Origin: an uncultured Candidatus Melainabacteria bacterium
Lineage (GTDB): Bacteria; Cyanobacteriota; Vampirovibrionia; Gastranaerophilales; Gastranaerophilaceae
Direction: 5' to 3'
Length of the DNA: 64,000 nt
NCBI GenBank assembly: GCA_949841365.1
Contig: CATKZI010000002.1
Span: 124,001-188,000, forward strand
Shown in pieces: positions 461 to 4,593 of the stretch. The translations under genes were made by a program, and so were the position numbers. The notes under the pieces are model-generated. The model was not told where the DNA came from and made no database searches. It was given only the letters and a program-made list of their open reading frames with translations. The number at the start of each line of letters is the position of its first letter. Positions within the stretch are counted from its first letter, which is position 1.

Positions 461-1123
461 ATGAAAACACCCGAAGCTATTCATACAATGTTCAATATGA
501 TTGCCAAAAGATACGATATGATAAATAACATTATGTCGTTTGGGACACATTTGGGCGTAAAATCAGCGTGCATAAAAAGTCTTGATATAAAACCGCATGA
601 CAATGTACTTGATTTGTGCTGCGGTACGGGTGATTTGGCAGGATTAATAAAAAAAATACAACCTCAAGCCTGCGTTACGGGAATTGATTTTTCCGAGAAT
701 ATGCTTGATATTGCAAAAGACAAGTATACGAACGTACAGTTTTTTCAAGGTGATGCTACAAGTCTGCCATACGAGGACAATACGTTCGATATCGTAACAA
801 TGGGGTTTGGACTGAGAAATATTCAAAACGCAGAAAAAGCCGTAGAGGAAGTTTACAGAATTCTAAAACCGAACGGAAAATTTCTCCACCTTGATTTTGG
901 CGAAAAAAATCTTATCAGCAAAATTTATGACAAACTGACACCCTTGATTGTTTCAAGATTTACCGACAACGCTCCGGCTTATTCTTACCTGATAAAGTCA
1001 AGGCAAATTTTCCCAATACCTGCCGAATTAATCAAAGATTTTGAAAGCAAAGGTTTTAAGCTGTATAAAAGAAAAGATTACCTTTTCGGGGTAATCTCCT
1101 CACAGATTATGGTTAAATCATAA
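461..1123 (+). CDS. menG: Demethylmenaquinone / ubiquinone C-methyltransferase MenG/UbiE
   Basis: SAM-dependent methyltransferase of 220 residues, within the normal UbiE/MenG size range. Motif I VLDLCCGTGD is at residues 49-58, followed by GIDFSENML, and the family hallmark FGLRNIQN lies around residue 117. The family performs the last C-methylation in menaquinone or ubiquinone synthesis. No other quinone gene is nearby, so which quinone is made cannot be told. It starts at an ATG 48 bp from the divergent DUF4127 gene. Its 3' end overlaps the convergent dehydrogenase by 6 nt with no terminator between them. Confidence 0.9.
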   Translation: MKTPEAIHTMFNMIAKRYDMINNIMSFGTHLGVKSACIKSLDIKPHDNVLDLCCGTGDLAGLIKKIQPQACVTGIDFSENMLDIAKDKYTNVQFFQGDATSLPYEDNTFDIVTMGFGLRNIQNAEKAVEEVYRILKPNGKFLHLDFGEKNLISKIYDKLTPLIVSRFTDNAPAYSYLIKSRQIFPIPAELIKDFESKGFKLYKRKDYLFGVISSQIMVKS

Positions 1124-2137
1124 ATTTTTAAACTCGCTGCCGCCTTGAATACAGTCTTGAATACCTTTGAAAGTCATTTCCAAAAGGTAATCTACGGCAT
1201 CTTGAGTTTCATAGGCAATATGAGGCGTTACAATAACATTTGGCATTTGAGCGAGTTTTTCAACTGTTTCAGCCTCTCTCATACATGTCATATCTTCACC
1301 TAAACGTTTTGCAAATTGGTTGCATTTAAAACTGTAGGTTTCACAAGAAACTACATCTAACCCCGCACCTGCAATTTCACCTGATGTAATTGCATCATAC
1401 AAAGCAATAGTATCAAGGATTTCTCCGCGTGAAGTGTTTATAATATAAGCATCTTTTTTCATCATTTTAAATTGCTCTGCCGATATCATATTTTGATTTT
1501 CACCGGTGTATGGAACATGCAGAGTAACAACATCAGATTCTCTGATTAGTTTATCAAAATCAACATATTCGACTACTTCCAGAAGTTCCTGTCTGTGAAC
1601 CAAATCGTAAGCCAAAACCTTCATATCAAGCGCATGAGCAAGCTTACATACAGCAGCACCGATAGACCCCGTTCCGATAACACCGATTGTAAGTTTTGAA
1701 ATATCACGGCCTAAAAATGAGTCGCACGCACTGTCTTTATTCAATACATAACGTGATGCAGGTATAATTTTTCTTATTAAAGCAATCATCAAACCCATTG
1801 TATATTGCGCAACAGACCTTGCCCCATAAGTTCCTACATTAATGACATCAATATTTTTATCAACACACGCCTTGTGGTTAATATGATCAATTCCCGTTGA
1901 ACGTGTTGAAACAGTTCTTAAATTCTTAAATTTGTCGATGACAGCCTGAGTAACTTCCGAATCTATAAAAACACTTATGACAGCAGTCTGTTCCAGTTGC
2001 TCGGGAGTTAAATTATTCACCGTATCCTCATTTAAACTCTCTTTAAAAAAAGTTATATCAAAATTTTCAAATTTATTTTCCTCAAAAAACTTTTTTTCGC
2101 TGTCGCGGAAATCAAAAATTAACATTTTTATTGCCAT
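1118..2137 (-). CDS. D-isomer-specific 2-hydroxyacid dehydrogenase (D-lactate dehydrogenase type)
   Basis: NAD-dependent 2-hydroxyacid dehydrogenase, 339 residues. The dinucleotide site VIGTGSIGAAV is at about 153-163. The catalytic triad is visible as Arg237 (in NTSRGE), Glu266 (in VVSCE) and His306 (in TPHIAY). Length and layout fit D-lactate dehydrogenases (pyruvate to D-lactate with NADH), a typical fermentative step, but related 2-oxoacid substrates are possible. A strong AGGAGG lies 10 nt before the ATG. The upstream leader carries the left copy of a 68-bp inverted repeat. The 3' end overlaps menG by 6 nt. Confidence 0.88.
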   Translation of the reverse strand: MAIKMLIFDFRDSEKKFFEENKFENFDITFFKESLNEDTVNNLTPEQLEQTAVISVFIDSEVTQAVIDKFKNLRTVSTRSTGIDHINHKACVDKNIDVINVGTYGARSVAQYTMGLMIALIRKIIPASRYVLNKDSACDSFLGRDISKLTIGVIGTGSIGAAVCKLAHALDMKVLAYDLVHRQELLEVVEYVDFDKLIRESDVVTLHVPYTGENQNMISAEQFKMMKKDAYIINTSRGEILDTIALYDAITSGEIAGAGLDVVSCETYSFKCNQFAKRLGEDMTCMREAETVEKLAQMPNVIVTPHIAYETQDAVDYLLEMTFKGIQDCIQGGSEFKNL

Positions 2138-2168
2138 AAAATATTTCCTCCTTTTTTCTTTTTACCCT

Positions 2169-2236
2169 TGGGCGGCTTATTCAGGGACTTATTAAAGTTT
2201 GTCGTCACTTTCTAAATCGCCTACTGTGTGATTTTA
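2169..2236 (-). repeat. 68-bp inverted repeat, left copy
   Basis: Read on the minus strand this equals 2949-3016 on the plus strand over 68 bp, apart from two substitutions in the middle (GACGACAAAC against GACAATAAAC). The two copies point outwards and enclose hsp20, giving an 848-bp unit. No transposase is present. This copy lies in the leader of the dehydrogenase gene. Confidence 0.9.
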
Positions 2237-2375
2237 CCAAACATAACCATTTATTCTATTACACAAAAGTGCATAGTATGAGCACAATTAATTAACACAA
2301 AGTCTAATGAAAATAACTGAAAAAAAGTTTATTGTGAAGATGTGAAAGGAAAAAACGGGAACGAGCATTTATTAG

Positions 2376-2464: not shown

Positions 2465-2941
2465 ATGAAACATGACTTAATAATCAGAGAACCTGATTTT
2501 TACTTTGACAGTATTCATAATGAATTAAATAACTTTTTGCGCGACACGCTTCTGGTTCACGCAAATCCCCTGAACGTCAAAAAAACTTCCATCTGGCGTC
2601 CCGCAGTAGAAGTTAAACAAAACGACAAAAACTACAAAGTAAAAGTCCAACTTCCGGGAGTGAACAAAGACGATATTGAAGTCGAACTTGATAACGAGTT
2701 TATGACAATAACGGCAGAAATTCACGAAGAAGCCGAAGAAAAAGAAGAAAAAGCCAAAAACGAACGCTGCCATACATCCGAGTTTCGTTACGGCAGATAT
2801 CAAAGAACAATCTCTTTTGATCATCCCGTCAAAACCGAAGAAAGTACAGCGGTTTATGACAAAGGTATTTTGACAATAACAATTCCAAAGGTTGAAATAA
2901 AACACAAACAGCCTAAAAGGTTGGAAATAAAGGAAAAATAA
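2465..2941 (+). CDS. Small heat shock protein, Hsp20 / alpha-crystallin family
   Basis: ATP-independent holdase chaperone that binds unfolding proteins, 158 residues. The alpha-crystallin domain spans about 50-150, with KVQLPGVNKDDIEVEL, YGRYQRTISF and the C-terminal GILTITIPK. A Lys/Glu-rich tail ends in a long basic stretch. A purine-rich GGAAAGGG sits 9 nt before the ATG. The gene is alone between two 68-bp inverted repeats, so it may be cargo of a small mobile or rearranged unit; I see no transposase. Heat regulation is likely from the family but no known operator is visible. Confidence 0.93.
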   Translation: MKHDLIIREPDFYFDSIHNELNNFLRDTLLVHANPLNVKKTSIWRPAVEVKQNDKNYKVKVQLPGVNKDDIEVELDNEFMTITAEIHEEAEEKEEKAKNERCHTSEFRYGRYQRTISFDHPVKTEESTAVYDKGILTITIPKVEIKHKQPKRLEIKEK

Positions 2942-2948
2942 TAAACGA

Positions 2949-3016
2949 TAAAATCACACAGTAGGCGATTTAGAAAGTGACAATAAACTTTAATAAGTCC
3001 CTGAATAAGCCGCCCA
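2949..3016 (+). repeat. 68-bp inverted repeat, right copy
   Basis: Partner of 2169-2236 with 66 of 68 positions identical in inverted orientation. It begins 7 nt after the hsp20 stop codon and ends where the structured RNA candidate starts. It contains possible promoter-like text (TTTAGA, then TAATAA), which could drive the RNA; this is weak. Confidence 0.9.
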
Positions 3017-3279
3017 GTGGTGAAAAAATCAGTATCCCAAACCTAATCCTCCGAGAGATTTTCGGTCATCCGTGTGAATGAAATGCCGAACCTGTGGTTC
3101 AATCAGGGCAAGGGAGTACACCCCGTGGCACATGTCACACACAATATAAGGCGGGATACGGACGGTTACCTGATGGGTGAAACTTTCCGGATAATGGGAA
3201 AGCTGAGCGCTATCGCCGCATATCTCAGATGACGGTAATCGATAAAAGACGCGGAACGACTGAAAGTTCCGCGTTTTTT
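3017..3279 (+). ncRNA. Structured RNA candidate with own terminator (possible orphan HEARO/omega-like RNA)
   Basis: There is no ORF here, but many helices are visible: GTATCCC 3032-3038 with GGGATAC 3153-3159; CCGA 3051-3054 with TCGG 3062-3065; GTGTGA 3072-3077 with TCACAC 3135-3140; TGCC 3084-3087 with GGCA 3127-3130; GAACC 3088-3092 with GGTTC 3096-3100; CTTTCC 3183-3188 with GGAAAG 3197-3202; CTGAG 3203-3207 with CTCAG 3224-3228. The fold is nested and multibranched and is followed at once by ATGA (3229), then by a strong terminator. It shows none of the hallmarks of tmRNA, RNase P RNA, SRP RNA or common riboswitches. A core of about 200 nt followed by ATGA resembles HEARO RNAs, the omega RNAs of IscB nucleases, but no iscB is adjacent. 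The RNA itself is fairly likely; the class is a guess. Confidence 0.55.
3249..3279 (+). terminator. Intrinsic terminator, bidirectional
   Basis: A 9-bp stem ACGCGGAAC (3249-3257) with GTTCCGCGT (3266-3274), loop GACTGAAA, then a T-run. On the minus strand it is followed by TTTT, so it can also end the convergent ligase gene that stops at 3283. Confidence 0.9.
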
Positions 3280-3282
3280 ATA

Positions 3283-4593
3283 TTATACACTTACATATTT
3301 AATCAATTTTTTAATATCTTTATTCCAAATGCCATTCCAGTTTCGGATAATCACATCCGCAGGACAAATTCCTGCAAGCGCATACTCTTTTATCGCATCA
3401 AGAAATTTTTCTTCACCCGTATCAGTTTCTATAAGAGCTTTTTCGGCAATATATAATATTTCCTTTGCAATATCTTTTGCGTAATATTTACCGATTTTAG
3501 CATTCAATGCACTTTTTGGAACATTATAGCGAAGTTCGGAAAAATCTCTGTAATCAAACGGTGCAAAAAGTTCTTCAATCTCTTGTATTGCGCAATGGCT
3601 GTATAAAATTCCTTTATAAATTGCCAAAATTGAGTATTGCAAACCTTTGCCGACGCAATCGTGGTTTCTGATTTCCAAGAAATTACGCATCCTAACCTCT
3701 GGAAAATAAAGGTTTGCATGAAGTTCAAAATCTTGAATATCAGCCTCAAACCCCTCATAACCATTTTGCATAAATTCCGCAAAATTTATTTTACCGTTAA
3801 TCGGCACAACGTCATTTTCACGATTAATAAAAATCATCGGGGTTTCAAGAACATAATCAACATACTCATCAAACGAAAACTTATCATCAATCTGCCCGAC
3901 AAAACCGCATCTGTCATTATCGGTATTGAGCCAGCTAAGTGCGCGAAAACTCTTATAACCCGTTTCAACTCCGCCTCTTATCGGAGAATTTGCAAACATA
4001 GCAGTCATAAACGGGGTAAGTTTATTTGCAATTTTGAACTTCTGCACGGCATCTTCTTCGTTTTCAAAATCAATACAGCACTGAATTCCCGCAGTTTCTC
4101 GCATCATAACATCCGACAAAATTCCCCAAAGATATTTTGCCATAAGTTTATAGCGTTTTTTAGGTATAAGCCCGATATTTTTGTTTGTAGAAAGAGGAGA
4201 TACACCGTAATTCAGCAAACTTATATTAAATTTGTCCAAAACAGGTTTCATCTGCTTATCTAAAACCTCAATTTTATTTTTAAGCTCATGAATTGAATTT
4301 TCGGGCTTAATACTCAATTCCACCTGACACCCGGGTTCAAGCGTAATTGTGTCATGCTCCTGTTTTAAGCCGATAATATTATAATCATCAGTAATATAAT
4401 CCCAATTTTCCTCTCTTGCAAAATTTCTCAAAAAATTACAAATTCCAAACTCTGAACCATAATCAACAGCCTTAGATGTAACGGGAAAAATCGGCAGTCT
4501 TTCATACTCCATTCCGATTTTGCAAGAACTTTTACAACCTTCCCTAAATAACTTTAGAATATCTTCTTTCCCTAATTTATGTGCCGTTTGCAT
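3283..4593 (-). CDS. gshA: Glutamate-cysteine ligase, GCS2 / plant-like type
   Basis: ATP-dependent ligase joining glutamate and cysteine to gamma-glutamylcysteine, the first step of glutathione synthesis; 436 residues. Recognisable stretches are IGMEYERLP (metal/ATP site, about 27-35), LEPGCQVELS, a run from MRETAGIQ to ANSPIRGG, and RALSWLNTD. These match the plant and cyanobacterial GCS2 branch rather than E. coli GshA. AAGGAG lies 6 nt before the ATG and a TATAAT sits about 20 nt further upstream, giving a short leader. No gshB is in the window, so gamma-glutamylcysteine itself could be the thiol used. A glyoxalase at 22291 may use the product. Confidence 0.85.
   Translation of the reverse strand: MQTAHKLGKEDILKLFREGCKSSCKIGMEYERLPIFPVTSKAVDYGSEFGICNFLRNFAREENWDYITDDYNIIGLKQEHDTITLEPGCQVELSIKPENSIHELKNKIEVLDKQMKPVLDKFNISLLNYGVSPLSTNKNIGLIPKKRYKLMAKYLWGILSDVMMRETAGIQCCIDFENEEDAVQKFKIANKLTPFMTAMFANSPIRGGVETGYKSFRALSWLNTDNDRCGFVGQIDDKFSFDEYVDYVLETPMIFINRENDVVPINGKINFAEFMQNGYEGFEADIQDFELHANLYFPEVRMRNFLEIRNHDCVGKGLQYSILAIYKGILYSHCAIQEIEELFAPFDYRDFSELRYNVPKSALNAKIGKYYAKDIAKEILYIAEKALIETDTGEEKFLDAIKEYALAGICPADVIIRNWNGIWNKDIKKLIKYVSV

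Follow-up and report, generated by a model that had tools for sequence, protein, structure and literature searches.

A structured RNA family of Gastranaerophilaceae that is kept at its locus after repeated loss of hsp20

The DNA analysed here (the window) is a stretch of 64,000 nucleotides, positions 124,001 to 188,000 of contig CATKZI010000002.1, from the 1.69 Mb genome (19 contigs) of an uncultured Candidatus Melainabacteria bacterium. The locus is ordered as a dehydrogenase gene transcribed divergently, a promoter region, hsp20 and a structured non-coding RNA, and in relatives the place of hsp20 may be empty. The gcl gene is convergent to the RNA, and no downstream gene lies on the strand of the RNA within the window. 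The features are as follows.

1118-2137, minus strand: D-lactate dehydrogenase-like gene, the divergent neighbour at every RNA locus with enough sequence
2159-2236, minus strand: second, inverted copy of a dispersed repeat, upstream of the dehydrogenase
2255-2350, plus strand: conserved promoter region, TCTATTACACAAAAGT ... AATGAAA-N-AAAAAAGTTTATT
2465-2941, plus strand: hsp20, encoding a small heat-shock protein of 158 aa, the gene upstream of the RNA, present or absent in relatives
2949-3026, plus strand: copy of the dispersed repeat of about 78 bp, between hsp20 and the RNA, outside the RNA
3029-3279, plus strand: structured non-coding RNA together with its intrinsic terminator, defined by homologues and covariance models R1 and R2
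3032-3038, plus strand: P1 5' strand GTATCCC, pairing with 3153-3159, covarying across genera
3042-3044, plus strand: P1b 5' strand CCT, pairing with AGG at 3149-3151 (GCCG/CGGC in other species)
3051-3065, plus strand: P2 hairpin CCGA...TCGG
3066-3148, plus strand: variable domain 1 arms, divergent in the clade formed by the window genome, G011 and G028
3153-3159, plus strand: P1 3' strand GGGATAC, partner of 3032-3038
3163-3170, plus strand: P6 5' strand CGGTTACC, closing domain 2 and pairing with 3234-3241
3174-3177, plus strand: P7 5' strand TGGG, pairing with CTCA at 3224-3227, compensatory changes at 2/4 pairs
3183-3202, plus strand: P8 hairpin CTTTCC...GGAAAG, 4/4 modelled pairs changed on both sides
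3234-3241, plus strand: P6 3' strand GGTAATCG, partner of 3163-3170
3249-3279, plus strand: intrinsic terminator, ACGCGGAAC / GTTCCGCGT and T run

The putative 5' end of the RNA was set at 3029, the start given for the conserved P1 stem. The promoter region was assigned from its conservation, and a sigma-70 search of its strand gave no match near 2330. The initial annotation had described a structured RNA with its own terminator and a closing pair GTATCCC/GGGATAC, and all of these elements were found in place, with covariation of the helices among homologues. The folding energy of the RNA, terminator included, was -87.8 kcal/mol compared with -71.7 +/- 4.9 kcal/mol for shuffled sequences (z -3.3). 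A terminator hairpin also stands 3' of the RNA in the homologues that were read.

When positions 2900-3320 were compared with Rfam 15, no family reached its gathering threshold, and cmscan with E up to 10 matched none; 18 distant homologues were likewise without any family match. A coding role was rejected, since the longest open reading frames are 13-61 aa and vary between species in frame and sequence, and no conserved ORF was found in the homologues. Identity with tmRNA or RNase P RNA was rejected because the genome has its own copies of both on contig C1 (139 and 200 bits, respectively), and identity with 6S RNA because a 6S-like RNA lies elsewhere. The latter (G000:C3:88103-88287) scored 39.6 bits, below the Rfam cut-off of 46.4, and is probably a diverged 6S RNA of the order. 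The segment GGUUACCGAUGG resembles part of a c-di-GMP riboswitch, and this likeness was dropped as the segment is not conserved in other genera and gave no model match. The RNA represents a new structured-RNA family that belongs to no Rfam family, as the initial annotation had allowed as its alternative. Its general kind, the stand-alone structured bacterial RNA, is already familiar. raiA and 6S RNA are large stand-alone structured RNAs of bacteria, with one copy per genome and a conserved fold throughout a taxon; the window RNA shares all these traits but has no sequence or model match to either. No description of it was found in the open papers searched; a prior listing in the supplements of the large human-microbiome RNA screen (PMC8040213) is possible.

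To describe its distribution, BLAST with the RNA matched 22 of 58 relatives, nearly all congeneric. Sixteen of the BLAST homologues were aligned (alignment A1) to derive the structure and covariance model R1, and a core model, R2, was built from the P1-closed domain of 20 sequences from several genera. With R1 the RNA was detected in 45 of the 383 genomes searched within the order, including 28 of the 33 in the window's genus. R2 matched 67 of the 383, one of them falsely: the match in G216 (L138) falls in coding sequence and was discarded. Every matching genome contained one match with either model. The RNA also occurs in about 12 further genera of Gastranaerophilaceae, at the same locus. In a phylum sample of 386 genomes the matches were confined to the same family and none lay outside, which does not prove absence elsewhere because the stricter filters of both large searches lose weak matches. 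When model-negative genomes were read from the dehydrogenase as anchor, the RNA was recognised by eye, from P1, P2 and the pseudoknot, in a further five genus groups (g20, g22, g23, g26 and g29). Records matching its most conserved 21 bases are mostly named Candidatus Gastranaerophilales (Melainabacteria). The same 21-mer is carried by L068 (FR900472.1), titled Fusobacterium sp. CAG:439, which is therefore most likely a mislabelled Gastranaerophilales assembly.

The helices covary strongly among these homologues. First, 92.7% of the cells of A1 within the genus were paired, whereas sliding the partner lowered the value to 29-55%; 18 of 52 pairs had changed on both sides compared with 8.2 in shuffles, and the double-changed cells numbered 50 against 16.4. 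P6 was paired in 100% of the cells of the genus alignment, and its pairing is compensated in L042. Second, the cross-genus alignment was paired in 89.0% of cells, with 23 double-changed cells against 5.8 in shuffles. Third, genus g21 gave 96.4% paired cells and 21 double-changed cells against 7.5 in shuffles. Most homologues start near UUCGUAUC and end with the terminator. Two helices, P1 (about 10 bp) and P1b (GCCG/CGGC), enclose domain 1, and within it lie the conserved junction AAAGCCGAAUC, the hairpin P2 and variable arms between P2 and the P1b 3' strand; domain 2 is a hairpin domain. Across the family, P1 occurs in covarying versions including GUAUCC/GGAUAC, GUGUCC/GGGCAC, GAAUUCC/GGAAUUC, GUACAAAA/UUUUGUAC and UUUGC/GCAAA. 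Outside the core the RNA evolves fast.

In most genera the RNA has a compact pseudoknotted fold. Outside the window's genus the two domains are joined by a pseudoknot of the loop-helix type. In eight genera (g28, g45, g23, g27, g26, g22, g20 and g29) P2 is followed immediately on its 3' side by one of four 5-mers, CGUAC, CAUGC, CGUGG or CGUGC, and the exact 5-nt complement follows further 3' in 28/28 sequences, which gives four compensated versions. Wherever its position was inspected, the complement sits in the domain 2 hairpin loop. Complements of mismatched types were found in 77/564 cases and those of shuffled 5-mers in 11%, and in this comparison the 5' strand had been located with the four 5-mers themselves, so that its choice was not blind. 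Genus g21 differs in that the domain 2 loop pairs with a hairpin loop of domain 1 (98.3% paired, 3/6 pairs double-changed). Domain 2 of the window's genus differs from that of the other genera, and the inter-domain pseudoknot of the latter was looked for there and not found. Two candidates seen by eye in this genus were a P5 loop GUGAU with AUCGC, which breaks in several species, and GCGGCG with CGCCGC, which competes with P1b.

The smallest forms, in g28, have about 116 nt before the terminator, with a compact pseudoknotted core of about 115 nt. This core, the conserved AAAGCCGAAUC junction and the comparable size would suit a riboswitch-like RNA that binds a ligand, or a self-cleaving ribozyme, placed as the last element of the hsp20 operon. 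We consider such a role very unlikely, since the terminator follows directly 3' of the RNA, the convergent gcl leaves no same-strand gene downstream in the window, and no Rfam family matched.

The RNA had been proposed in the initial annotation to be an orphan HEARO/omega RNA (RF02033) behind an inverted repeat, with its 5' flank as a guide. Its length, its several helices within one closed domain and the ATGA in the stretch are indeed in keeping with such an RNA. However, the Rfam comparison included HEARO, and orphan omega RNAs are expected at scattered insertion sites, whereas this RNA is single-copy, occupies one orthologous position throughout the family and has its own terminator after a second domain. 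The ATGA is present at 3229-3232 but lies inside the RNA and does not mark its 3' boundary, as the P6 3' strand, the closing stem of domain 2, follows it. In place of a changing guide, the 5' flank is the orthologous end of hsp20, the promoter region or, in the window, a dispersed repeat. A HEARO model search of the genome gave no match, and neither did a search of it for the IscB RRXRR domain; the controls of both searches were silent as well. Based on these observations, we regard a solo omega RNA as practically negligible.

The inverted repeat itself is real, its copies at 2949-3026 and 2159-2236 being 94% identical, but it is a dispersed element unrelated to the RNA. Since the repeat ends ahead of P1, 2949-3026 lies outside the RNA, and the supposed guide match between 3001-3016 and 2169-2184 arises because both segments lie in repeat copies. 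There are five copies in the window genome (G000; the others at C7:25993, C5:146328 and C2:227252), and five in G011, while the remaining 31 congeners have few or none. The repeat is thus present in strength in only two species, it stands between hsp20 and the RNA in only 2 of the 33 species of the genus, and G028, whose RNA is 92% identical, does not have it at the corresponding site. The repeat (GGTAAAATAACACAGTAGGCG ... ATAAGCCGCCCRGTGGTGAAA) is often found immediately 5' of start codons, among them those of etfB-like, nadB-like, formyltransferase-like and glycosyltransferase-like genes, and is arranged in tandem in G009. Possible identities are a MITE and a mobile 5'-UTR element.

The relation of the RNA to hsp20 was followed on a dehydrogenase tree of 77 loci, 46 with hsp20 and 31 without. 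Along this tree hsp20 switches between present and absent about 16 times, and at least 15 of the switches are forced by well-supported branches. Between the dehydrogenase and the RNA lie the promoter-region blocks, TCTATTACACAAAAGT and then AATGAAA with AAAAAAGTTTATTCT, which directly abut the RNA at loci that lack hsp20. A clean deletion of hsp20 was seen in L038 when compared with its close relative L037: L037 has GAAAGGAG and hsp20, while L038 keeps GAAAAGAG between the promoter region and the RNA, beside the latter, likely a remnant of the ribosome-binding site. Of the 77 loci, 26 retain the RNA without hsp20; they are spread over many independent branches, and structure and covariation are intact there. 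Most tree loci had been chosen for having the RNA, so that the anchored sample alone gives an unbiased test of retention; in that sample the RNA was present at 8/8 loci with hsp20. The RNA is thus independent of hsp20. Repeated loss of hsp20 with the RNA kept is a natural experiment that points to selection on the RNA and not on the chaperone alone, and therefore the RNA itself probably does a job.

At most loci that bear hsp20 the RNA lies close behind the stop codon and may share the hsp20 transcript, as would be expected of a cis-acting 3'-UTR element that stabilises or localises the hsp20 mRNA and has no role of its own. We give this explanation little credence, because the structure is maintained at the 26 loci without hsp20 and the promoter region abuts the RNA there. 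The position would also fit production from an mRNA 3' end. Like 3'-UTR-derived small RNAs, the window RNA stands behind the stop codon of a stress gene and ends in the intrinsic terminator of the operon. It differs from them in that it is a large pseudoknotted fold and not a short seed RNA, in that it has repeatedly come to lie next to the promoter region as the host gene was lost, and in that it does not depend on that gene.

A stress-gene neighbourhood and an intrinsic terminator are also typical of antisense-type small RNAs that silence or activate mRNAs by base pairing. A precedent is DnrH of Deinococcus radiodurans, a heat-inducible RNA that pairs with and acts on hsp20 mRNA (PMC6798082). 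Both RNAs are non-coding and linked with hsp20, and a heat-stress link is presumed for the window RNA; DnrH, however, pairs with hsp20 mRNA, whereas the complementarity of the window RNA to its own hsp20 was unremarkable (-49.8 compared with -51.8 +/- 5.5 kcal/mol) and the RNA outlasts hsp20 at the locus. No excess complementarity to gcl was found either, and antisense action on hsp20 or gcl was rejected. Complementarity to ldh was slightly stronger than in the controls (-70.1 compared with -61.2 +/- 3.9 kcal/mol), in one of three tests. Moreover, conservation follows the helices and junctions, and inspection by eye showed no conserved single-stranded seed. We therefore hold an antisense function of the DnrH type to be unlikely, and for the same reasons binding of a protein is preferred over pairing with mRNAs.

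We favour, with reasonable but limited confidence, the explanation that the RNA is a vertically inherited, stand-alone, single-copy RNA of Gastranaerophilaceae that is coexpressed with the stress gene and works in trans, probably through a bound protein. We infer that it is transcribed, induced under stress, processed and bound by a protein. Transcription would start from the stress-type promoter region facing away from the dehydrogenase gene and end at the intrinsic terminator of the RNA. Where hsp20 is present, the RNA would form the tail of the hsp20 message and then probably be cut out; where hsp20 has been lost, it would be a short primary transcript. P1 and P1b close domain 1 around the AAAGCCGAAUC junction and P2, and the domain 2 hairpin loop forms a pseudoknot with the strand 3' of P2 in most genera, or with the domain 1 loop in one genus. 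Under stress, the RNA would most likely work in trans by presenting this compact fold to a putative protein partner. Fast evolution outside the core, which would not usually be expected where a protein partner is essential, counts against this explanation, as do the negative sigma-70 search and the failure to find the inter-domain pseudoknot in the window's genus. That the family further constitutes a new class, namely a stand-alone, pseudoknotted, stress-coexpressed, trans-acting RNP RNA that evolutionarily outlasts the hsp20 whose promoter region it shares, is in our judgement an even call.

The work defines a family-wide RNA in the gut Melainabacteria, a large group that has received little study, and its covariance alignments are a possible starting point for an Rfam family. 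With structure, pseudoknot, promoter region and natural deletions mapped, the function of this new RNA class can be tested directly. The congeners that lack the RNA are five genomes in a single clade with 100/100 support, L164, L165, L168, L170 and L171 (G023, G027, G012, G021 and G029), in which hsp20 is also gone from the locus; they are useful natural knock-outs. In G023 and G027 the dehydrogenase now directly faces gcl.

We also observed that the distance from the dehydrogenase to hsp20 is 328 nt in the window and about 150 nt in most relatives, a repeat copy making up part of it. The hsp20 leader (2350-2464) holds an extra insert of roughly 100 nt relative to most relatives and contains the palindrome AGATCCTGAAACAAGTTCAGGATGACAG, which looks like another dispersed element.
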